Below are positions 24,409-49,691 of a stretch of 64,000 nt of DNA, piece by piece. Position numbers and translations under genes: made by a program. Below the pieces are notes generated by a model. The model was not told the origin of the DNA and searched no databases. It worked only from the letters and a program-made list of their open reading frames with translations. The DNA lies in the NCBI GenBank assembly GCA_949288415.1, contig CASEKE010000013.1, forward strand, positions 1-64,000. The letters run 5' to 3'. This DNA comes from an uncultured Spirochaetales bacterium (GTDB lineage: Bacteria; Spirochaetota; Spirochaetia; Sphaerochaetales; Sphaerochaetaceae). Within the stretch, counting starts at the first letter, position 1; the number at the start of each line of letters is the position of its first letter.

Positions 24409-24741
24409 TCAAAGGTGCAGATGATCGTCGTACTTGGATGAAAGCAGCTTTCTCATGAAGCCTTCCTTTTTCTTGAGCATCCTGGATCCACGCGTTATCT
24501 TGCAAAGGCTGATGTGCCTGTTGCTTGCGATATCTCTCTGGCTCTTTCCCTTGTAAAGATCGTCCATCAGAAGGAAGCGCAGTATGAAGTCGTTGATCTC
24601 TGCGTCCGTGAACAAGTCGTCGAAGAGGCTGAGCATCTCGTTCCTATCGTCTATGCGAGTGAATATGTCCACCAAATCGTCGAAGGCCTTCCTGCCCTCC
24701 TCCGTGTTGATGATTCTTTCCTTGGAGTTTTTTTCATTCAT
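24409..24741 (-). CDS. TrpR-superfamily DNA-binding protein, YerC/YecD type
   Basis: A 110-residue protein. The middle (LFDDLFTDAEINDFILRFLLMDDLYKG) followed by SQRDIASNRHISLCKITRGSRML matches the Trp-repressor-like YerC/YecD family, with the helix-turn-helix at about residues 65-90. Members are small transcription factors of mostly unknown regulon, and there are no trp genes here. No Shine-Dalgarno sequence is present. A minus-strand promoter TTGAAA / 16 bases / TACTAT (24771-24776 and 24749-24754) ends seven bases before the ATG, so the transcript is probably leaderless. It is divergent from the acidic repeat-protein gene and could regulate it. Confidence 0.85.
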   Translation of the reverse strand: MNEKNSKERIINTEEGRKAFDDLVDIFTRIDDRNEMLSLFDDLFTDAEINDFILRFLLMDDLYKGKSQRDIASNRHISLCKITRGSRMLKKKEGFMRKLLSSKYDDHLHL

Positions 24742-24776: not shown

Positions 24777-25027
24777 AGTTGTCCTTTCATGCTGTCTTTT
24801 CCGCAGAGGAACGTGTACAATGGTCTCTAAGGAGTCCGGATGGACGGATCAGAGATTGCTCGCGTCCATAGGCCGACCGCGCCTGGCAAGATGGAGGAAA
24901 AGGACAGGACGGAAGGTTCAATGCGGAAAAGGATGCTGAAGGAAAGATATAGCTCTTTCTTCATGTCGACTGAAACGACGATTTCCTCGAATACTATACG
25001 GGAAAAAATAATCAAGGAGAAAAGACA

Positions 25028-27877
25028 ATGGCGGATTTTAAAGACATCGATGCCGATTTCGAGTTCAATCTGGACTACAGAATGGACGATTACCTGCTTG
25101 AAGTGAAGGACGATTACTTCGGAACTCTTCTGTTTGGAACCGACGAAGGGGAATACAGGAACCAGAAGGCCTTCAAGTTCACCACGGATGACGGAACAGT
25201 TACGGCAAGTGTCGACCTTGACGAATACAACGGGAAAGACGACTTCGACGAAACGGAGCTGTTTTTTGAGGACGGAAAGCTGGTTGCCCTCGAGGGCTCG
25301 ATCCTGTTCGAAGAAGATGACGAGGAGGATGCTCTCGAATGCTTCTACGAGCTTATGGAAGCGGTGTCGGACAAGACGGATGTATATCCGGAAGTCGATG
25401 TGGACGGAGAGGACGAAGATGCTGAGGATGCGGACGAAGAGGACTATCCGGAGCTTCTGAGAGAGGACAAAGTTGCACTTACCGCGTCCTGGCTTACACC
25501 TGATCTGTTTCTGGATCTATCAATCTTCAACGACGATGGAAAGATTGTCGTCGTCATGTACATAGGAATCAATCCCGACAGGAACTCCAACTTCTTCGCC
25601 ATCGACGACGGGAACTTCGAGCTTCTCGCCGATTACGTTTCGCCGGACCTATCGTACTACGACAGCAAGGATGCGGTAATGGAAAGTCTGGGAACCGATG
25701 AGCTGCCGTTCATCTCCGAAAAGGCTCCGTTCGGATTCGAGAACGCCGTGGTCGAATACGACGATGCTCTGCGACTCTTCTTTGTAAGAGGCGTCGGCAG
25801 CGAGGAGGAAGGAAAGAGGTTGCTCGAGGAAAAGAGGAACGAGATAGCGAAGTTCTACGAGGACGAAGGCAAACTGGTCGAAGAGGACGGCTTCTTCAAC
25901 AGTTATTACTACTGGAAGGGATTCTCCACGGAAACGATGCTGTCGCTGGAGAAATACAAGGACGGATACGCCCTGTTCATCGACATCTCGGAAATGGATG
26001 AGTTCATTCCGTGCATGATGGCCGAAGACGACAAGCCTGTATTCTCAGACGATACGATTGCCTGGGCATATGATACGCTCGGAGTCGAAATAGGTTCCGA
26101 CATGGACATCGTCGAGGAAGCCTATGCATCCCTCATGGATGACTACAGCGAGGACGCGGAACAGCTGGAGGATATCGACGACGAGGAAAGGAACAAGCTA
26201 GAAAAAAGAAGGTACGAGATAGAGGAAGCCTTCAGCATCCTTTCTGAATACTTCAGCCAGGACGATGACGGCGAATTCGACGAAGAGGATATCCTCGACG
26301 CTCTGGACACTCTCGGTCTCAAAGAAGGAGCCGGTGTGCAGGACGTGTACGACGCCTATTCGTCGTTCATGGACGAATATGTGAAAAAAGCCGATCCTTC
26401 GGACGAGGAAAAGAGGAAGAACGAAGAGGTATCGGCTGCATTCGACAAGCTTATCTCCTATTTCGACGAGGATGACGGGGACGAACTTCCCGAGTATGAC
26501 GAAGAAGATATCCTGGATGCCTACGACACACTCGGAATCGAACCTGAGAAGGAAGACGAGATAGACTACGACGAGCTGATGGAAAATTACCTCTACGCAC
26601 TCAACGAGGCCGAAGACGAGAACGACATCGAGGAAATAGAGAACGCATACGACATCCTTGCGGACCACTTGCAGCTCGAAAGAGCTCCGTCTCCTCTCGA
26701 AGGCATGCAGGACGCGCTCGACAGATTCGGCCTCGACGCGGAAAACCTCGATCCCATCGTGCTCGGAGAAGCTTACCTGGATGCGCTCGACAAGGCAGAG
26801 GGCGATGAAGAGAAGGATGCGATCAACGAGGACTTCGAACTGCTGAAAAACGTCATGAGAATAGCGGAACGCAGCGCAGGGCGGAAATGGAGCAACAGCT
26901 ACTTCGACTTTGCGGATGACAGCGACGAGGAACTGATGCGCGAGGCACTGGCCGAGATCGGCCTCGAAGAGGACGCCGACGAGGACGAAGTCAAAAAGAG
27001 ATTCAGGGCTCTCGAGGACTACCTGAAAAGAGACGAGAAGCTTTCTGCAGAGGCAAGGGAGGAACTGATAGACGCCCTCGACTACATCGATTTGTGCTAC
27101 GAAATAAGGGACGACAAGGAGAGGCGCGACGACCTCAAGGATTCGTTCGCTCTCTTCGGTCTCAAAAAGAGCGCCACGGCAAAGGATCTTGACGAAGCCT
27201 TCGACAAGGAGTTCACAGCCAAAAAGAGCTACCCCGAGCTTCAAAGACTCGCATCGGAATACTACAGTCTATCAGGATTCTTCAACGCCTATCCGATACT
27301 CCCGACAGCCGTGATCGAAGCTCTGAAGTTCTTCGGGCTCGACGAGGAGGATCCGGCGGATCTCGACGAGGATACAATCGTGAACGCATACTACGACAAA
27401 GTCTCGGAGGAAGACGACAAGGGAAAGGACAAGGCGTACGATTTCCTTGCCTTGCTCGGAGCCTGGTATGACTTCGATCCGGAGGGAGAGATGGACGATG
27501 ATGCGCTCAAGGCACTTGAGGAACTCGGATTGGATACCGACGCAGACGACTGCGATGTCGAGGATGCGATCGACGAACTATATGCGAATGCAAGGCTGGA
27601 CGACGACATCGAGAAGATGAAGAAAGCGGAAGAATACAAGGAACTGCTTTCGCCCTACTTCAGCTTCGACAGCGAGCTTGGAGATGGCATAAGCGAGGAA
27701 GACTACGACAATGCTTTGCTGTTCTTCGACTACAATGACGATGAAGATGCGGAATTCGAGGACATACTCGGATCATACTGCAAGAGGCTCGGTAAGGCGC
27801 TCAAGGAGCACGAGGACAAGGAGACTCGCAAACTCATCGAGAACTTCCAGATACTCATGAACGTCATGAACGACTGA
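25028..27877 (+). CDS. Very acidic protein with nine degenerate J-domain-like repeats
   Basis: A 949-residue protein dominated by Asp and Glu. I do not recognise a named family. Residues 1 to about 115 and about 150-335 look like two mixed alpha/beta regions separated by an Asp/Glu linker. From residue 341 to the end I count nine tandem helical units, starting near 341, 418, 492, 559, 633, 702, 760, 823 and 890. Each carries a pattern like ALDTLGL, then an acidic turn, then AYxxxMDxY, then a spacer, then AFxxLxxYF. This resembles helices I-IV of a DnaJ J-domain, but the HPD triad is lost in every unit. GGAGAAAAGACA precedes the ATG, and a strong terminator follows. No signal peptide or membrane segment is present, so it is probably cytoplasmic. 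A scaffold or chaperone-like role would be pure speculation. Confidence 0.85.
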   Translation: MADFKDIDADFEFNLDYRMDDYLLEVKDDYFGTLLFGTDEGEYRNQKAFKFTTDDGTVTASVDLDEYNGKDDFDETELFFEDGKLVALEGSILFEEDDEEDALECFYELMEAVSDKTDVYPEVDVDGEDEDAEDADEEDYPELLREDKVALTASWLTPDLFLDLSIFNDDGKIVVVMYIGINPDRNSNFFAIDDGNFELLADYVSPDLSYYDSKDAVMESLGTDELPFISEKAPFGFENAVVEYDDALRLFFVRGVGSEEEGKRLLEEKRNEIAKFYEDEGKLVEEDGFFNSYYYWKGFSTETMLSLEKYKDGYALFIDISEMDEFIPCMMAEDDKPVFSDDTIAWAYDTLGVEIGSDMDIVEEAYASLMDDYSEDAEQLEDIDDEERNKLEKRRYEIEEAFSILSEYFSQDDDGEFDEEDILDALDTLGLKEGAGVQDVYDAYSSFMDEYVKKADPSDEEKRKNEEVSAAFDKLISYFDEDDGDELPEYDEEDILDAYDTLGIEPEKEDEIDYDELMENYLYALNEAEDENDIEEIENAYDILADHLQLERAPSPLEGMQDALDRFGLDAENLDPIVLGEAYLDALDKAEGDEEKDAINEDFELLKNVMRIAERSAGRKWSNSYFDFADDSDEELMREALAEIGLEEDADEDEVKKRFRALEDYLKRDEKLSAEAREELIDALDYIDLCYEIRDDKERRDDLKDSFALFGLKKSATAKDLDEAFDKEFTAKKSYPELQRLASEYYSLSGFFNAYPILPTAVIEALKFFGLDEEDPADLDEDTIVNAYYDKVSEEDDKGKDKAYDFLALLGAWYDFDPEGEMDDDALKALEELGLDTDADDCDVEDAIDELYANARLDDDIEKMKKAEEYKELLSPYFSFDSELGDGISEEDYDNALLFFDYNDDEDAEFEDILGSYCKRLGKALKEHEDKETRKLIENFQILMNVMND

Positions 27878-27911: not shown

Positions 27912-27946
27912 CCCAAATGTCGGAAACGACATTTGGGATTTTTTTT
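27912..27946 (+). terminator. Strong intrinsic terminator of the acidic repeat-protein gene
   Basis: A perfect 11-bp stem, CCCAAATGTCG (27912-27922) with CGACATTTGGG (27927-27937), has a GAAA tetraloop and then A and eight T. Confidence 0.95.
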
Positions 27947-28000
27947 GGTCATGGTATGAATTACTGGACACAAAGTTAAAAGAATAAAACGAAGAGGACA

Positions 28001-28282
28001 GTGTCCAGAAGAGTATTCGACATGGATTGCAAACTTGCAGCAGCAAGGCTGATAGTCGAAGATGATATGGATGTCAAGGAAGTGCAGGAACTTCTCGCCA
28101 TCCACTACAACACCCTTTACAGACGGGTATCCGAGTACGAGAAGTATGGCCAGTCGGCCTTTCACGGGAACGGGGTCAGGATATACGACCACAACAGAGT
28201 GGATCTTAATTCCTCCAACTTTGTGGGATTGGTTCAGGATACGGGCCGTCTTTCTTACAGCGCAGGAGAAAAGAGCTTGTAG
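28001..28282 (+). pseudogene. Remnant of an IS3-family transposase OrfA
   Basis: The first 55 codons, from a GTG with AGAGGA just upstream, encode a helix-turn-helix of the IS3/IS150 OrfA type: RRVFDMDCKLAAARLIVED, then LLAIHYNTLYRRVSEYEKYG and AFHGNG. A full OrfA would continue into a coiled coil followed by OrfB. Here the frame runs into unrelated residues and stops, and no OrfB is present. TACTGGACACAAAGTT at about 27962-27977 resembles an IS150-type terminal repeat. The element is therefore a left-end fragment. Its 3' part overlaps the end of the cardiolipin synthase gene. Confidence 0.7.
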
Positions 28283-29778
28283 AAATAACGGAAGGCACGT
28301 CTTATGAATCCTATGCGTACCTTCTTCTGCTCGTTCATCACGCAGGAAAGCTCGAAAAGGTGAAGGAAATCCTTTTTGACTTCCTCGCATATTCCCGCCT
28401 GAAAAAACGCGACCGAAAGCTCGAAGTGGAGGAAAAATGATCTGAAATCAAGATTCGTGGTTCCCACTATAGCCTTGTCGTCGTCGGAGAGGAACATCTT
28501 CGAATGCACGAAGCCAGGTGTGAATTCATAGATTTTCACGCCGCTGGATATGAGGACGTCGTAGTTCGAACGCGAGACCTCGTGGACCTGCTTCTTGTCG
28601 GGAATGTGGGGCGTTATTATCCTCACATCCACACCGCTGATCGCAGCCAGACGCAACGCCTCCAGCATTCCATCGTCCGGTATCAGGTAAGGCGTGGTAA
28701 TCCAGACATATCGCTTCGCGCTGCCTATCATAGTAAGATATGCGTTCTCTCCCACTGCATCGTTCACGAATGGATTGAATCCGAACGGTTGCACAAGGCC
28801 GTCATCCTCGACCTCTATGGACGGAAGATATTCGAACGGGTCGTCCTTCTGCCCGGATACGGCATCCCATAGCTCGAGGAACATGGCCGTAAGCGTGAAC
28901 ACCGCCGAGCCTGTAAGTTTTATCGCATTGTCCTTCCAATAGCCGAACCTTATCTCGCTGTTGAAATACTCGTCAGCGAGATTCAGTCCTCCGGTGTAGC
29001 AGACATTTCCGTCTATCGAGAAGATCTTCCTGTGGTCGCGGAAGTTCAGACGCGGGTTGAGATGCAGTCTCACCGGATTGAAGCAGAATGCCTTGATGCC
29101 ATACGACCTGAGTGTCCTGTAGTAGTAGATCGGGATACTGTTGATCGAGCCCATGTCGTCATACATGACGCGTACATCGACTCCTGCTGCGGCCTTTCTT
29201 CGCAGGATTTCGAGAATCCGGTTCCAATACTCGCCTTCCCCTATTATGAAGTACTCGATGAAAATGAAGTGCTCTGCCTTCTCCAGTTCGTCGAGAAGGT
29301 CCAGAAAAAAGTCGTTTCCATCAGCGAAATACACCGATCCGGTCGACCCGAAGGCAGGGGCTCCTGTTGAATTGTATATATAGCGTGAAAGCTTCTTCGA
29401 ATCATCGTCCCTTATCAGTTCGATGGCATCGTCCTCGATCTCGCCTATCACATCCTTCACATGGCTATCGATACGGTATACCTTGATTTTCTTCTCGGAC
29501 AGCCGACCTATCTTCTTGTTGCCGTAAAGCAGATACAGAACTCCGCCGAATGACGGGAAAAGAGATGCAAGAAGCATCCAGACCATCTTGTACGCAGGCT
29601 TCTCGTTTCGAGTCATCACGAGGAGCACGACAACAGCGGAAAGAAGCGTGAAGTATATGTAATAACCCTTCGAATAGGCTGCCCAGAATACGAGGTAGAT
29701 CATCACGGAAAACTCAGCCGCGAAAAGAAGAGCCGAAAGGAATAGCCGTGACGTAAGTACCCTAACGAGCTTTCTCAT
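28255..29778 (-). CDS. cls: Cardiolipin synthase (phospholipase D family)
   Basis: A 507-residue membrane enzyme that condenses phosphatidylglycerol into cardiolipin. Two N-terminal membrane segments (about 12-34 and 40-55, with a third near 66-86) precede two HKD motifs: His249 in DHRKIFSIDGN and His425 in HSKMFLSDDDK, each followed by the expected GG(L)N or GTTN. This is the Cls family plan and length. The start at 29778 lies inside queH (17-base overlap), so the two are co-transcribed. The C-terminal codons run into the IS remnant region, but the expected tail (FRYFYKLFSPAL) is present, so the gene seems intact. Confidence 0.95.
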   Translation of the reverse strand: MRKLVRVLTSRLFLSALLFAAEFSVMIYLVFWAAYSKGYYIYFTLLSAVVVLLVMTRNEKPAYKMVWMLLASLFPSFGGVLYLLYGNKKIGRLSEKKIKVYRIDSHVKDVIGEIEDDAIELIRDDDSKKLSRYIYNSTGAPAFGSTGSVYFADGNDFFLDLLDELEKAEHFIFIEYFIIGEGEYWNRILEILRRKAAAGVDVRVMYDDMGSINSIPIYYYRTLRSYGIKAFCFNPVRLHLNPRLNFRDHRKIFSIDGNVCYTGGLNLADEYFNSEIRFGYWKDNAIKLTGSAVFTLTAMFLELWDAVSGQKDDPFEYLPSIEVEDDGLVQPFGFNPFVNDAVGENAYLTMIGSAKRYVWITTPYLIPDDGMLEALRLAAISGVDVRIITPHIPDKKQVHEVSRSNYDVLISSGVKIYEFTPGFVHSKMFLSDDDKAIVGTTNLDFRSFFLHFELSVAFFQAGICEEVKKDFLHLFELSCVMNEQKKVRIGFIRRAFRYFYKLFSPAL

Positions 29779-33796: not shown

Positions 33797-35065
33797 ATGC
33801 CGTTCACACTTGTCACAGAAGAGATCGTCGCAGAGAAGGACGAGTTCATACGAGAAATCGAGGAAAGCGGGAGCTACAGCTTCCCTCCTTCGGATGAGTA
33901 TCCCATTTCCGATCTGACCGACGGCAAAAAGGGGATGATGTTCGCCCTTCTCGTCGCTCGTGCTTCCACAGGAGAGAAAAAGATTCTCAGGGGATTCTCC
34001 GGTCTCGCAAAGGGACGCTGTACGATTCCCGGCTATGTTCCGCCATGCTACAGCGCAAACGAATTCACGAGAATCGCGGAAAGCTACGACAAAACGATAA
34101 AGGATCTCGGAAAGCGGATTCTAGAGGGAGAAGACCTCTCGGAAGAAAGGCGGAAGACGACGCACGAGGCTCTTGCCAGACTCAACGAACTCTATTCGTT
34201 CGCCGACATAGATTCGCACCGTTTCGGCCTTGACGAGATAGGAAAGGATCTGCCTACGGGAACTGGCGACTGCGCCGGGATAAAAGTCCTCAACCAGGCG
34301 TTCAGAAAAGGCTGGCAGGTCGAAGGCTTTATAGAGTTCTACTATGGGAAAGACACAGCGGAAAGAAAAAGCGGAGAGATATACCCTCCATGCCGGAGCC
34401 GCTGCGAGAAGCTGATCGAAAGAATGCTGAAACTGTCCTTCGTCTACGTATGCGACGATTTTGCGATAGTCGACAAGCCGGCAGGACTGCTCTCCGTCCC
34501 CGGGCGCGGCGAGGACAAGGCCGACTGCGTATCGGCACGTTTCCACCGCCTTTTTCCATCCTCTCCCGAGCAGTGCTTCGTGCATCGCCTGGACATGGAT
34601 ACATCCGGACTTCTGGTCCTTGCACGCAACAGGCAGTCCCACAGAAGCCTATCGATGGCCTTCGAGGACAGGCTCGTCAGGAAGGAGTACGAAGCCTTGC
34701 TGGAAGGACGGCTGGAAACGATGGCAGGAACGATCGACCTTCCGATAAGGAGCGACCCCAGCAACAGGCCTTACCAGGTAGTGGACATAAAAAACGGCAA
34801 AAGATCCGTCACCGGATACAAGGTGCTCGGATTCACGACAATAGACGGGGTTCTATGCACAAGAGTACGTTTCTTTCCCGAGACAGGAAGGACGCATCAG
34901 ATAAGGGTACACTCGGCATACGGCCTCGGACATCCGATAAAAGGCGACAGACTCTACGGCAGCAGAAAGGATGGCGAAAGGCTGTTGCTGCACGCGGCAC
35001 TGCTGAGCTTTCCCCACCCATCGACCGGAGAGACGATGACGTTCACCTCCGAGGTGCCGTTCTGA
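33797..35065 (+). CDS. RluA-family pseudouridine synthase with long N-terminal region
   Basis: A 422-residue protein. The C-terminal 220 residues are an RluA-type pseudouridine synthase with catalytic Asp in HRLDMDTSGLLVLARN and the later GRTHQIRVH. The MD in HRLDMDTSG resembles E. coli RluA, which modifies tRNA and 23S rRNA. The N-terminal 210 residues include GTGDCAGIKVLNQAFRKGW and GFIEFYYG, a region found in a subset of long RluA homologues whose role is unknown to me. There is no ribosome site; an AATAAT -10 (eight bases before the ATG) after TTGCCC suggests leaderless transcription right after the tRNA terminator. Confidence 0.9.
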   Translation: MPFTLVTEEIVAEKDEFIREIEESGSYSFPPSDEYPISDLTDGKKGMMFALLVARASTGEKKILRGFSGLAKGRCTIPGYVPPCYSANEFTRIAESYDKTIKDLGKRILEGEDLSEERRKTTHEALARLNELYSFADIDSHRFGLDEIGKDLPTGTGDCAGIKVLNQAFRKGWQVEGFIEFYYGKDTAERKSGEIYPPCRSRCEKLIERMLKLSFVYVCDDFAIVDKPAGLLSVPGRGEDKADCVSARFHRLFPSSPEQCFVHRLDMDTSGLLVLARNRQSHRSLSMAFEDRLVRKEYEALLEGRLETMAGTIDLPIRSDPSNRPYQVVDIKNGKRSVTGYKVLGFTTIDGVLCTRVRFFPETGRTHQIRVHSAYGLGHPIKGDRLYGSRKDGERLLLHAALLSFPHPSTGETMTFTSEVPF

Positions 35066-35067
35066 AG

Positions 35068-35850
35068 TCAGCGCCTGCCGAGTACCTCGTCGACCTTGAG
35101 AAACCTGAATCCCGGATATGACGAGAAGAAACCCTCGAGCATCGGCAGCGATCTTGAAGTATTCTCAGGCTTGTGAGCATCGGTTGCCGGCACCGTTCTG
35201 ATGCCTTTGTCGACAGCCATGTCCCAGAATTCGCGCATCGGGTAGGACGGCCGATCGTACTTCGAAGGTCTGATCAGTCCGTTTCCGTTCGCTTCAAGGA
35301 TCATGCCGAGGTCCTTTGCCGCATCGATTATCGCTTTCGATACGGCTTTGGCCTCATCGTCGAACTTTTCATATCCGATGAAGAACACGTCAGGATGCGC
35401 AAGGTATGTGAAAAAACCCGACCTCATGCCCTTTATCGTGGAGTCGGCATAAAGCGCAAGATCGCTCTTTGCAAGAGGACGGGTGAATATCGACCTGTAG
35501 GATCCATCGATAAGCGTGTAATGGGTACCGAAAATCAGGTAGTCGGTCTCCTGCCTGAGTTCCTCGTAATAGTGTTCCATGTCATCGAAGTAGTCGCACT
35601 CCCAGCCAAGAAGTACCTCGAGTCCCTTCTTCGAGTATTCCTCCCGCACCTTGGCGACATCCGATGTGAACCTATCCTTCATCGCATAGGCCATACGGGA
35701 AGCGGAAAGCCTGTCGTCGGGAAACGGCAGATGTTCGGTGAAGCCGAGCACCTTAAGTCCGGAGCGGAGCGCCGACTCCGCGTAATCCGAAGGATTTCCC
35801 TCCCCATGTCCGCAGTATCTACTGTGCGTATGCAGATTGTAGTCGATCAT
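35068..35850 (-). CDS. hisK: Histidinol-phosphatase of the PHP family
   Basis: A 260-residue PHP enzyme: NLHTHSRYCGHGEGNP at the N-terminus, GFTEH, GWECDYF, FGTHYT, AHPDVF and the C-terminal ATDAHKP supply the metal ligands. This is the HisK/HisJ histidinol-phosphatase pattern and length, the enzyme that removes phosphate from L-histidinol phosphate in histidine synthesis. No other his gene is nearby, so a related sugar phosphatase role cannot be excluded. Its ATG overlaps the stop of the coiled-coil gene upstream (ATGA). Confidence 0.85.
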   Translation of the reverse strand: MIDYNLHTHSRYCGHGEGNPSDYAESALRSGLKVLGFTEHLPFPDDRLSASRMAYAMKDRFTSDVAKVREEYSKKGLEVLLGWECDYFDDMEHYYEELRQETDYLIFGTHYTLIDGSYRSIFTRPLAKSDLALYADSTIKGMRSGFFTYLAHPDVFFIGYEKFDDEAKAVSKAIIDAAKDLGMILEANGNGLIRPSKYDRPSYPMREFWDMAVDKGIRTVPATDAHKPENTSRSLPMLEGFFSSYPGFRFLKVDEVLGRR

Positions 35851-36926
35851 AAATCCCAGTCTCCTCCCCTTCCTTCTTCGCCGGAATCTTCGTCGTTCGA
35901 CGGTGAAAGCTTCCCGAGTTCGTCCTTGAGAGCCCTTATTTCAGCATAAATGGAATCGATCTTTTCATCGATTCTCTTTTTCTCGTCCTCAAGTGCGTAG
36001 ATTCTCCTGAAGTTGTCGTCGATCAGGCTGCGTATGTCCCTTTCCTTTGCGGCAAGATAAAGCTTCTCCTCGTCACGCTTGAGATCATCGAGCTCCCGAT
36101 CCAACAGGATGAGCCTTTCAAGAATCGAAAGCACATCCTCGCCCGTGTTCTCGTCGATCCAGGTCTCGGCCTTCGAGTAAAGCCGTTCGGCATACGCGAC
36201 AGCATCGCAATAGAATGCGGACTCGCTTTCCTTTATGGACTCGTCCAGCTTTTTTACATCTTCGCCGCTGAGGCCGTCTTTCTCGTCGAATGCGGCAATG
36301 CGCTTCTTGAAGTCTTCGAGTAAGTTTCTCAACTTCATCCGCTCGCTTTCGAGATTCCGTATGTCCGATATCAGCTTTACCGCCTTCTCTCCGGTGACAA
36401 GGCCTTCCTTGCCCTCCTCGAAAAGTCTGTCGGAATATCCCACGTACCTCTCGCGCCGCAATTTGTCGAAGTCCTTGAGATTCTTCCTGTAGGAAAGCTT
36501 TTTCAGAAAGGACTTGTCCCCGGATTCGGTCAGTTTCCTGTAGACTCGTGCATCCTCGTCCATGAAATCGACGGATCTGTCAAGCACTCCCATGGAACGC
36601 TGCTCGAACAGCACCGCCCCGAGACTGAGCTTCTTCTCTTCCAGACTGCCGTCGATCTCGGCCAGCTTCTTTTCAATGCGGTTCTTCTTTTCCACAAGAT
36701 CGTGCCTGGCCGAAAGGCTTCCCACGGCCTCCGCCCTGTACTCTCTCATTCCATCAAGAGAATTCAGGCGGTCGGAAAGCCTACCGAACTCGTCCTCCTC
36801 GTCCCTCGTCTCGTCGTTCCTCGCAAGAACGGCTATCGCGAGATCGTAAAGCAACGCCGACCTGTCGTTTCTCAGGTCTTCTCTCTTGTCGTTGATGCTT
36901 TTGAATTCAGGGGCGAAAAGTTCCAT
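35847..36926 (-). CDS. Coiled-coil protein of unknown function
   Basis: A 359-residue cytoplasmic protein from the ATG at 36926. Almost the whole length is predicted helix with heptad patterns, especially residues about 85-125, 195-230 and 270-345 (for example KRIDEKIDSIYAEIRALKDE). No catalytic motif and no membrane segment are seen, and I do not recognise a family. It overlaps hisK by four bases. An upstream TTG extension to 37013 is possible but adds a hydrophobic stretch without a ribosome site, and its first codon lies at the edge of a plus-strand -35 box. Confidence 0.7.
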   Translation of the reverse strand: MELFAPEFKSINDKREDLRNDRSALLYDLAIAVLARNDETRDEEDEFGRLSDRLNSLDGMREYRAEAVGSLSARHDLVEKKNRIEKKLAEIDGSLEEKKLSLGAVLFEQRSMGVLDRSVDFMDEDARVYRKLTESGDKSFLKKLSYRKNLKDFDKLRRERYVGYSDRLFEEGKEGLVTGEKAVKLISDIRNLESERMKLRNLLEDFKKRIAAFDEKDGLSGEDVKKLDESIKESESAFYCDAVAYAERLYSKAETWIDENTGEDVLSILERLILLDRELDDLKRDEEKLYLAAKERDIRSLIDDNFRRIYALEDEKKRIDEKIDSIYAEIRALKDELGKLSPSNDEDSGEEGRGGDWDL

Positions 36927-37006
36927 TGCAAGATAAAATGATAGCACAACATCCCTTTCCTTGCCATAGATAAGGAAAAAGAGAGATGTCTTGAGGGCCT
37001 GATTTG

Positions 37007-37035
37007 TTGACAAAGAGGGAATAGAAATATATCCT
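37007..37035 (+). promoter_or_regulatory. Consensus-like promoter with a ~100-base leader
   Basis: TTGACA (37007-37012), a 17-base spacer, then TATCCT (37030-37035). The predicted leader runs to the ATG at 37143. An AAGGAG at about 37123 is 13 bases from the start codon. A structured or cold-responsive leader is possible. Confidence 0.65.
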
Positions 37036-47743: not shown

Positions 47744-48589
47744 ATGAGCAAGGATAGACGGAAGGAAAAAAGACTGGAGCACGGAAATACGGTCTACGTC
47801 GTCAGGGATGACGGAGCCGTGATGATCGACGGAGACAGGAACGGGACATGGAGTTTCGGGGAGCCCGGAGCGGACGGCAGTCTCATGTTCAACGGGGAGA
47901 AGGTGGACGAACTTGTGGCGATGGCCTTCGTTCCCGGCAGGGACACAGGATGTCTGGTGGAACATAGGGACGGGGACAGGAGAAACAACAGAGCCGACAA
48001 CCTGAGATACATCGGACGCCTGGAGAGCTTTCTTCTCAAAGGAAATCTCCTGAGACGTCTCGAACTCGAGACGGGCCATGACGCGGAAAGCATAATAAGG
48101 AAGATCAGGCTCATAAGGGAAGCCAGGGAAAGAGAGGACGCAAGATGGCTCTGCGAAGTCACGCAGGAAGAGATCGCAAGGACGATATCGAGATTGAAAG
48201 ATACAGGAGGGAAAGGATGCTACCGTCTTGGAATCAGGCCATCGCTCACGCCGAATGCCCTGCAGAAGGGACTTTCAGAGGCATACTCGTTCCCGTTGTG
48301 CCCGAAACTGCACAGTTCCTCGTTGGCCGACTACAAAGGCACGCTGAGAACCGGACGGGCCGTCATGGTGGAACAGACCGACAGGAACTGCGTGGTGGAT
48401 GCAGAGCTCTCGGAAGACGGGGATAGGCTGTGCATAAGGACGAGGAGCGCACGTCTCTACAGGCCGCATGGCCTTCTCGTCGTCACGATCGAATATGGAC
48501 AGTTCCTGCATGACGGACGATTCTTCCACGACAAGGAAAGTCGGGACAGGGAATTCATGAAGGAACTCGAAGCTAGAGATTCTCCCTGA
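47744..48589 (+). CDS. HNH-endonuclease-like protein of unknown role
   Basis: A 281-residue cytoplasmic protein. Residues about 50-95 (VDELVAMAFVPGRDTGC, then VEHRDGDRRNNRADNLRYIG) match the HNH_3 motif of phage and homing endonucleases, with His and Asn residues in place. The remaining 185 residues are not recognised and include a charged helical segment and a beta-rich end. It is not inside another gene or next to an intron. AAGGAG lies seven bases before the ATG. Its end overlaps the convergent J-domain gene by 17 bases. It could be a domesticated nuclease or a nucleic-acid-binding protein. Confidence 0.7.
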   Translation: MSKDRRKEKRLEHGNTVYVVRDDGAVMIDGDRNGTWSFGEPGADGSLMFNGEKVDELVAMAFVPGRDTGCLVEHRDGDRRNNRADNLRYIGRLESFLLKGNLLRRLELETGHDAESIIRKIRLIREAREREDARWLCEVTQEEIARTISRLKDTGGKGCYRLGIRPSLTPNALQKGLSEAYSFPLCPKLHSSSLADYKGTLRTGRAVMVEQTDRNCVVDAELSEDGDRLCIRTRSARLYRPHGLLVVTIEYGQFLHDGRFFHDKESRDREFMKELEARDSP

Positions 48590-49691
48590 GCCATTCGTAG
48601 GCCTCGTTTATGGTCTGCATACGGCTCTTGGCATATTCCATGAACTCCTTGTCCAGATCGTACGAGGCTATCCTGTCGGGATGGAATTTCAAGGCCATCG
48701 ACTTGTGGGCCTTTGCCACATCGTCGAAAGATGCGTCCTTCCCGAGTCCGAGAAGGGAAAGGTAGTACTCCTTCTCGCTTCTTTCCTCCCTGGCCTTCTC
48801 AAGCTTCATCTTCTCGTCGTAGTAGGCAAAGAACGCCTTGCGCTGCTCCCGAGTATCATGGAAACCGTTCATGTACCAGGCGAAATCCATGGGCGACAGG
48901 GTGACGCCGAACGAAAGGTAGCCCTCGCCACCGTAGGAGGGACTGTCGGCGCACGGCAGCCTGTGCTTCTCCACGGCGACGACATAGTCGTCTTTCCCTT
49001 TTTCCTCCTGCATGCGTTCGATGAATGTGTAATAGTCCACCAGATCCATGTTCTCCAATCCCGCATACATGTTGAAGGACGAAAGGAGCTGCAGATATCT
49101 TATCAGGGCCTTCTTCTTCTCTTCGGAGACTTCCTTGTAGTAATCCAGGAAACCGAGATCCAGATGCTCGAGATTGCCGGTATCGATCCTTCGCGGAGAA
49201 CGGACAAGCAGGTCGAGGCAGAAGCTGCCCTCCCCCGATGCATCGTAGGACAGAACGAGACGCACGGATTCTATCTTCTTCGTCTTGAGGTTGTCGAAGA
49301 ACATCCGGACCCCCTTGTCCTTCCTGTGGATCAGAGTCTTCTCTATCGGCAGGTTTGGATCTAGCGGTCCCTCAAGATAGGACGGCACCTCGTATCCGGA
49401 AGCCCCGAGCAACGCGATGATCTCCTCGAGAGCGAACGGGGAAACGGCAGAGCCGTCAAGCTCGTAGATGTTCTCCTCGATCTCCCCTTTGCCGATGCTC
49501 TTGTGTACAATCGTCTTTCTTATTGCCAGATTGAAGAGCGTTCCCTTGACGTACGCCTCGTATATATCGGCCTTCCTGCGCCGACCTTCCACCTCGAGAG
49601 GAACCTCGATGCTGTGTCTGGCACGGATCGATATCGCAGAGAGGCTTCTTGAGAAAACGTCTTCAAGATAGAGTCTGAGCTTTCCTTCCAT
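48573..49691 (-). CDS. Protein with C-terminal J-domain
   Basis: A 372-residue protein. The last 65 residues (from YYLSLLGLGKDASFDDVAKA to NEAYEWLRENL) form a complete J-domain with an intact HPD triad in LKFHPDR. It should therefore stimulate an Hsp70 (DnaK). The first 300 residues are of unknown fold, with an internal segment from LGLGKD upstream rich in charged helices (MKLEKAREERSEKEY). A C-terminal J-domain is the reverse of classical DnaJ and is seen in specialised co-chaperones. The promoter TTCACA / 17 / TATCAT ends seven bases before the ATG, suggesting a leaderless transcript. Confidence 0.85.
   Translation of the reverse strand: MEGKLRLYLEDVFSRSLSAISIRARHSIEVPLEVEGRRRKADIYEAYVKGTLFNLAIRKTIVHKSIGKGEIEENIYELDGSAVSPFALEEIIALLGASGYEVPSYLEGPLDPNLPIEKTLIHRKDKGVRMFFDNLKTKKIESVRLVLSYDASGEGSFCLDLLVRSPRRIDTGNLEHLDLGFLDYYKEVSEEKKKALIRYLQLLSSFNMYAGLENMDLVDYYTFIERMQEEKGKDDYVVAVEKHRLPCADSPSYGGEGYLSFGVTLSPMDFAWYMNGFHDTREQRKAFFAYYDEKMKLEKAREERSEKEYYLSLLGLGKDASFDDVAKAHKSMALKFHPDRIASYDLDKEFMEYAKSRMQTINEAYEWLRENL

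Follow-up and report, generated by a model that had tools for sequence, protein, structure and literature searches.

An acidic bacterial protein with nine tandem J-domain-like repeats that lack the HPD motif

The gene at positions 25028-27877 (+) of the window, by which we mean the whole 64,000-nt stretch of DNA analyzed here, encodes an acidic 949-residue protein (P0001) that carries nine tandem repeats. As judged from sequence, profile and predicted fold, which agree with one another, these repeats are degenerate J-domains by descent, as an earlier note on this DNA had proposed. The J-domain is the part of the DnaJ helpers that switches on the Hsp70 chaperone; J-domains are usually single and are defined by HPD-driven activation of Hsp70. 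P0001 is a known kind of domain in a new arrangement, not a new fold, and we lean toward regarding it as a J-domain-derived scaffold or multivalent acidic binder that does not drive Hsp70.

The gene, its locus and its distribution

An ORF and translation check of the window showed the reading frame to be intact over all 949 residues. A Shine-Dalgarno sequence (AAGGAG, 25014-25019, +) precedes the gene, with the ATG 8 nt downstream, and the gene does have a terminator of its own, as had been claimed for it: an 11-pair stem followed by a T run (27912-27945, +), of which 27912-27937 form a strong hairpin. The synonymous codon log-odds is 0.145, as against 0.03-0.23 in neighboring host genes, and the two other sense frames of the ORF score 0.003 and -0.316. 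P0001 is a real host gene with host-like codon usage, which argues for long residence or for a donor of similar usage. We discounted a 348-aa antisense ORF (26198-27244), taking it for a shadow that the acidic codons of P0001 cast on the other strand, and an Rfam search of the region found no RNA.

Both neighbors of the gene are on the opposite strand, which leaves it by itself, so that the context offers no operon partner. On its left flank lies the divergent TrpR-like regulator that had been noted before (24409-24741, -; Pfam Trp_repressor, E = 2.8e-13), and on its right flank a cardiolipin-synthase-like gene (28255-29778, -), which we take to be cls from reading its sequence and of which 45 congeners carry an orthologue, in most cases at 51-64% identity. 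The cls-like gene is followed by the trpR-like gene on the same contig, 26-138 bp apart, in 41 of the 45 congeners in which the trpR-like gene was detected; the two are on different contigs in three of the 45 and ~1.5 kb apart in one (G022). Here the distance is 3.5 kb, taken up by the P0001 gene and by the remnant of an IS3-type transposase (OrfA; 27968-28230, +; HTH_Tnp_1, E = 2.3e-5) with imperfect terminal inverted repeats. The P0001 gene was inserted between cls and trpR in one lineage and is seen in a single genome among those sampled. An 85% identical copy of the OrfA remnant is present in the same genome (G000:C51:7662-7969), which speaks against a foreign piece of contig; the rest of the element is not evident at either remnant. 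The stretch between cls and trpR in the other genome with a wide spacing (G022:C16:6940-8419) could show whether the junction is a repeated insertion site. In the source assembly, a single draft of 53 contigs that is 87% complete, dnaK, dnaJ and the gene for a J-TPR protein (L002) lie on other contigs than P0001.

The gene was found in 1 of the 48 genomes of the genus and dnaK is near-universal, which makes co-occurrence of the two, suggested earlier as a check, uninformative. No relative of whole P0001 turned up in congeners or in ~390 genomes of the phylum, nor by tblastn in phages and plasmids. None came either from peptide-pattern scans, run with P0001 and with an alignment of its first three repeats (R1-R3) against species genomes and against viral contigs; such scans need short near-exact matches and overlook distant relatives. 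PHROG 14336, tried as a phage tandem family, is the phage DnaJ family, which matches the whole DnaJ in nearly every genome. A bacterial protein of this architecture was found neither in Pfam, NCBIfam, PHROGs, PADLOC and the PDB nor in the open literature searched, which, with partial coverage, yielded no tandem HPD-less J-protein in bacteria. Within these libraries and papers, the opinion that no protein of this kind had been described stands.

P0001 has a molecular weight of 109 kDa and a pI of 4.05, and its Asp+Glu content of 31.1% is the highest among the 51 long ORFs of the window (mean 12.9%, sd 4.8%), so its description as highly acidic was apt. It is probably a soluble, cytosolic protein; inspection by eye revealed no signal peptide or membrane helix. 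The N-terminal region, residues 1-333 (25028-26026, +), in which two putative domains had been noted earlier, has no family match in Pfam or the PDB and no convincing one in PHROG. In a low-confidence full-length model it is probably alpha/beta, with strands predicted at ~49-89 and ~150-175. An internal duplication in this region was unsupported (z 2.7, 0.5 and 0.6), and weak matches to it in the ~390 genomes were unrelated proteins (e.g., UvrB) at chance level. We note that the second most acidic long ORF of the window (35847-37013, -; 388 aa, 23.7% Asp+Glu) is probably coiled-coil and has no Pfam family.

Nine J-domain-like units

Nine repeat cores were found, the first beginning at residue 341, as had been claimed, and the others at residues 419, 492, 557, 633, 700, 759, 823 and 890. 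Scored one by one with a J-domain HMM, four repeats are J-like beyond all of 1000 shuffles: R1 (residues 341-409; 26048-26254, + as for all repeats) at 18.0 bits, R2 (419-479; 26282-26464) at 21.6 bits, R3 (492-548; 26501-26671) at 14.2 bits and R5 (633-691; 26924-27100) at 13.8 bits. R1 and R3 also reach z = 10 and z = 9 to L002, the genome's own J-protein, and R5 has in its favor a match to the NCBIfam J-protein ActJ at 642-705. R6 (700-752; 27125-27283; 11.9 bits, 1/1000 shuffles as good) and R8 (823-878; 27494-27661; 5.5 bits, 5/1000) come near to this level, and three repeats are weak alone, namely R4 (557-610; 26696-26857; 2.2 bits, 22/1000), R7 (759-814; 27302-27469; 2.3 bits, 47/1000) and R9 (890-947; 27695-27868; 2.2 bits, 39/1000). 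Compared with each other, R1 and R2 are the most alike (z ~12), followed by R2 and R3 (z ~9-10); the others are joined at z 4-6, and R9 weakly. The weak repeats are tied to strong ones at z ~4-6 through links from R4 to R3 (z 5.9) and from R7 to R3 and R4 (z 4-5), with R8 linked to R2 (z 4.4-5.2) and R9 to R4 (z ~4).

For the whole protein, hmmscan returned Pfam DnaJ as the only family (E = 4.8e-4, three stretches), with a score of 20.6 bits that lies below the gathering cut-off of 27.8, and the NCBIfam matches were to the J-proteins DjlA (E = 8.5e-6) and ActJ (E = 3.1e-4). In 60 related genomes, whole P0001 had a single match (E = 1.4e-4), a congener's J-protein that is canonical and bears HPD. 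A profile of R1-R3 matched J-proteins in 48/48 genomes of the genus, down to E = 3.6e-8, with L002 of the same genome at E = 5.8e-7, and 34 of its 35 PDB matches at E < 0.1 are J-domain proteins. An HMM of the clade's J-domains gave P0001 29.1 bits, as against at most 8.8 in 2000 tail-shuffled versions. In HMM-HMM comparison, the probability of a relation to J-domains was 95% for all nine repeats, 96% for R1-R3, 83% for R4-R9 and 37% for R4/R7/R8/R9, as against at most 7% in column-shuffled controls; the alignment behind the shuffle and HMM-HMM tests was built manually, with a J-like register. R1-R3, R5 and R6 each have a higher z to the J-domain of L002 than to that of DnaJ or of P0004, a hint but no proof that the array may have originated from the L002 J-TPR family.

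The predicted fold points the same way. An AF2 model of one unit (repeat 2), built from an alignment of P0001 repeats only and without canonical J-domains, has a pLDDT of 87.6 and a pTM of 0.71 and forms a predicted J-type fold with helices I-III at 9-18, 27-43 and 49-71. When this model was searched against the PDB with Foldseek, the top list consisted almost entirely of J-domains, with probabilities up to 1.0, TM ~0.6 and E-values all above 0.1; against a viral library, mainly DnaJ-domain proteins were near the top. With VIA-align, the first rank went to Tim16 at Z 7.9 (60 residues, rmsd 2.3), tied with canonical J-domains, as rows with a Z difference below 1 count as tied. For a small helical bundle, a Z below 8 is insufficient alone but enough together with the sequence evidence, which carries the J assignment. 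The full-length single-sequence AF2 model (pLDDT 40) was set aside for fold claims and, as an indication only, has about three helices per repeat. Of the structure that the earlier note expected, the J-like fold is borne out by the repeat 2 model, whereas four-helix units with helix I-IV spacing are not: the AF2 models give three helices (I-III) per unit, and helix IV is not seen.

Loss of the Hsp70 contacts and possible roles

HPD is absent from all nine repeats and from the rest of the 949 residues, which contain two histidines only (residues 547 and 928); every HPD has indeed been lost, as was claimed. Counted over the stretch aligned with DEIKRAYKQLAKKY of L002, the net charge of helix II from R1 to R9 is -5, -4, -4, -2, 0, -2, -3, -5 and +1, with the register of R3 ambiguous, so that it is negative in 7/9 repeats and negative or neutral in 8/9. 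The four canonical J-domains of the clade have +3, +3, +1 and +3. It is with a positively charged helix II that J-domains dock on the negatively charged groove of DnaK, and HPD is required too (PMC5519331); against these known contacts, the missing HPD and a helix II at -5 to +1 instead of the canonical +1 to +3 make it unlikely that the P0001 units engage DnaK as co-chaperones. The idea of a decoy for Hsp70 loses ground as well, because helix II, the basic docking surface for the acidic groove of DnaK, is mostly not basic here. The other proposals made earlier, a scaffold or a surface for basic clients, are possible.

In the reading that we favor, one J-domain would have been duplicated repeatedly to give nine three-helix units that make up the C-terminal two-thirds of P0001. 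With HPD lost from all units and the charge of helix II reversed in most, these would neither bind nor stimulate DnaK, and the array would provide one partner protein, or several, with a scaffold or a multivalent acidic surface to bind to. The N-terminal region may be a specific functional head.

The likeness to Tim16 bears on an alternative that we hold to be unlikely, in which P0001 antagonizes or titrates the DnaK system of its host, its Tim16/Pam16-like units pairing through their acidic helix II with canonical J-domains and thereby blocking or redistributing DnaJ or the J-TPR protein L002. Pam16/Tim16 is itself J-like without HPD, and in its pair with Pam18/Tim14 it keeps the partner from stimulating mtHsp70 (PMC12953747); it is the best structural match of the unit model, helix II of the repeats is opposite in charge to that of the host J-domains, and among these the L002 J-domain is the most similar to the repeats (z to 10). 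Tim16 is not singled out by the structural comparison, however, being tied at Z differences below 1, the charge reversal is perhaps due to the overall acidity of the protein, and no genomic link connects P0001 with dnaK, dnaJ or L002. A bolder version, to our minds a little less likely still, is a bacterial "anti-J", soluble and prokaryotic but otherwise analogous to Tim16, whose nine HPD-less, mostly charge-inverted J-modules in one chain would form pairs with canonical J-domains; toward the DnaK system of the host it would be a multivalent brake or a sorting scaffold.

Presence in a single genome of the genus and the adjoining IS remnant would also fit an orphan with little or no function, either a tolerated recent insertion in one lineage or a misassembled piece. 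We consider this improbable, as the 2.85-kb ORF is intact and has a Shine-Dalgarno sequence, a terminator and host-like codon usage, the repeats have strongly diverged from each other but kept the three-helix pattern, and the IS remnant has its second copy in the same genome. Quite improbable, in our estimate, is a DNA or RNA mimic or a sink for basic proteins such as restriction enzymes, nucleoid proteins or ribosomal proteins. The Asp+Glu content and pI would suit such a role, as would an orphan gene on an insertion next to an IS remnant, but acidity alone is weak evidence, PADLOC gave no match, and there is no phage or plasmid relative. To the best of our knowledge, known DNA mimics are far smaller than 949 aa. 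Convergence of an unrelated helical repeat, of the TPR or EF-hand type, on a J-like pattern is largely refuted and very improbable. The units are indeed short and helical, and the individual scores of R4, R7 and R9 are weak, but profile, pairwise and fold searches all lead to J-domains, and TPR and EF-hand models matched neither P0001 nor the single repeats at E up to 10 (HMMER filters on); the TPR- or EF-hand-type fold that had been set as the refuting outcome was thus not found.

With nine copies of the J-fold that have shed their Hsp70 contacts, P0001 would be a case of bacteria putting this fold to new use as a repeat module. Should the modules bind J-proteins, P0001 would represent a new kind of chaperone regulator; should they not, it would still extend the range of J-like architectures and offer a simple test of the fold without HPD.

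Comparison with known systems

With the J-domain (Pfam PF00226, DnaJ/Hsp40), the repeats share helix I "DxLGL", the loop, helix II "AYxxxM" and helix III "AFxxL", all in register, and the unit model superposes on it; the nearest J-domains in the clade are those of the J-TPR proteins L002/L005. P0001 differs in that HPD is missing, helix II is acidic, helix IV is not seen and one chain holds nine copies, and also in its score below the Pfam gathering cut-off. L002 (G000:C15 near 34999-35680) is a conserved protein with an intact HPD and with orthologues L005, L021, L023 and L026. This family has a C-terminal cysteine-rich hydrophobic tail, e.g., FFPCCFPFFPCCCII, which is reminiscent of the cysteine string in eukaryotic DNAJC5 and may serve to anchor the protein in a membrane. 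The window also encodes a conserved ~372-aa protein (48573-49691, -) with a C-terminal HPD J-domain and ~300 N-terminal residues without a Pfam family; its orthologue in congener G001 (L037) adjoins an mnmA-like gene, and the arrangement in the window is almost the same.

The J-domain stretches of DjlA and ActJ match P0001, but the whole protein scores far under the equivalog cut-offs of both and has no second domain in common with them. Pfam RPT (PF13446) is a short repeated domain of ubiquitin hydrolases, of which yeast Ubp2 is an example. It matches R7 (E = 0.0046; 17.2 bits, below the gathering cut-off of 28.2) and R3 (E = 0.074); RPT belongs to eukaryotic deubiquitinases, with no enzyme domain common to P0001. 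When members of the RPT family were sought in the phylum, the best match proved on inspection to be an ordinary HPD J-protein. The RPT model matches a plain HPD J-domain protein of the phylum (L041, 841-1659, -), which suggests that RPT itself may be a J-like fold.

Tim16/Pam16 resembles the P0001 units as a degenerate J-like domain without HPD and holds the top, if tied, rank in VIA-align. It is a single domain, eukaryotic and located at the mitochondrial inner membrane, where it has Pam18 as its partner, whereas P0001 is a bacterial protein of nine tandem units that is predicted to be soluble.
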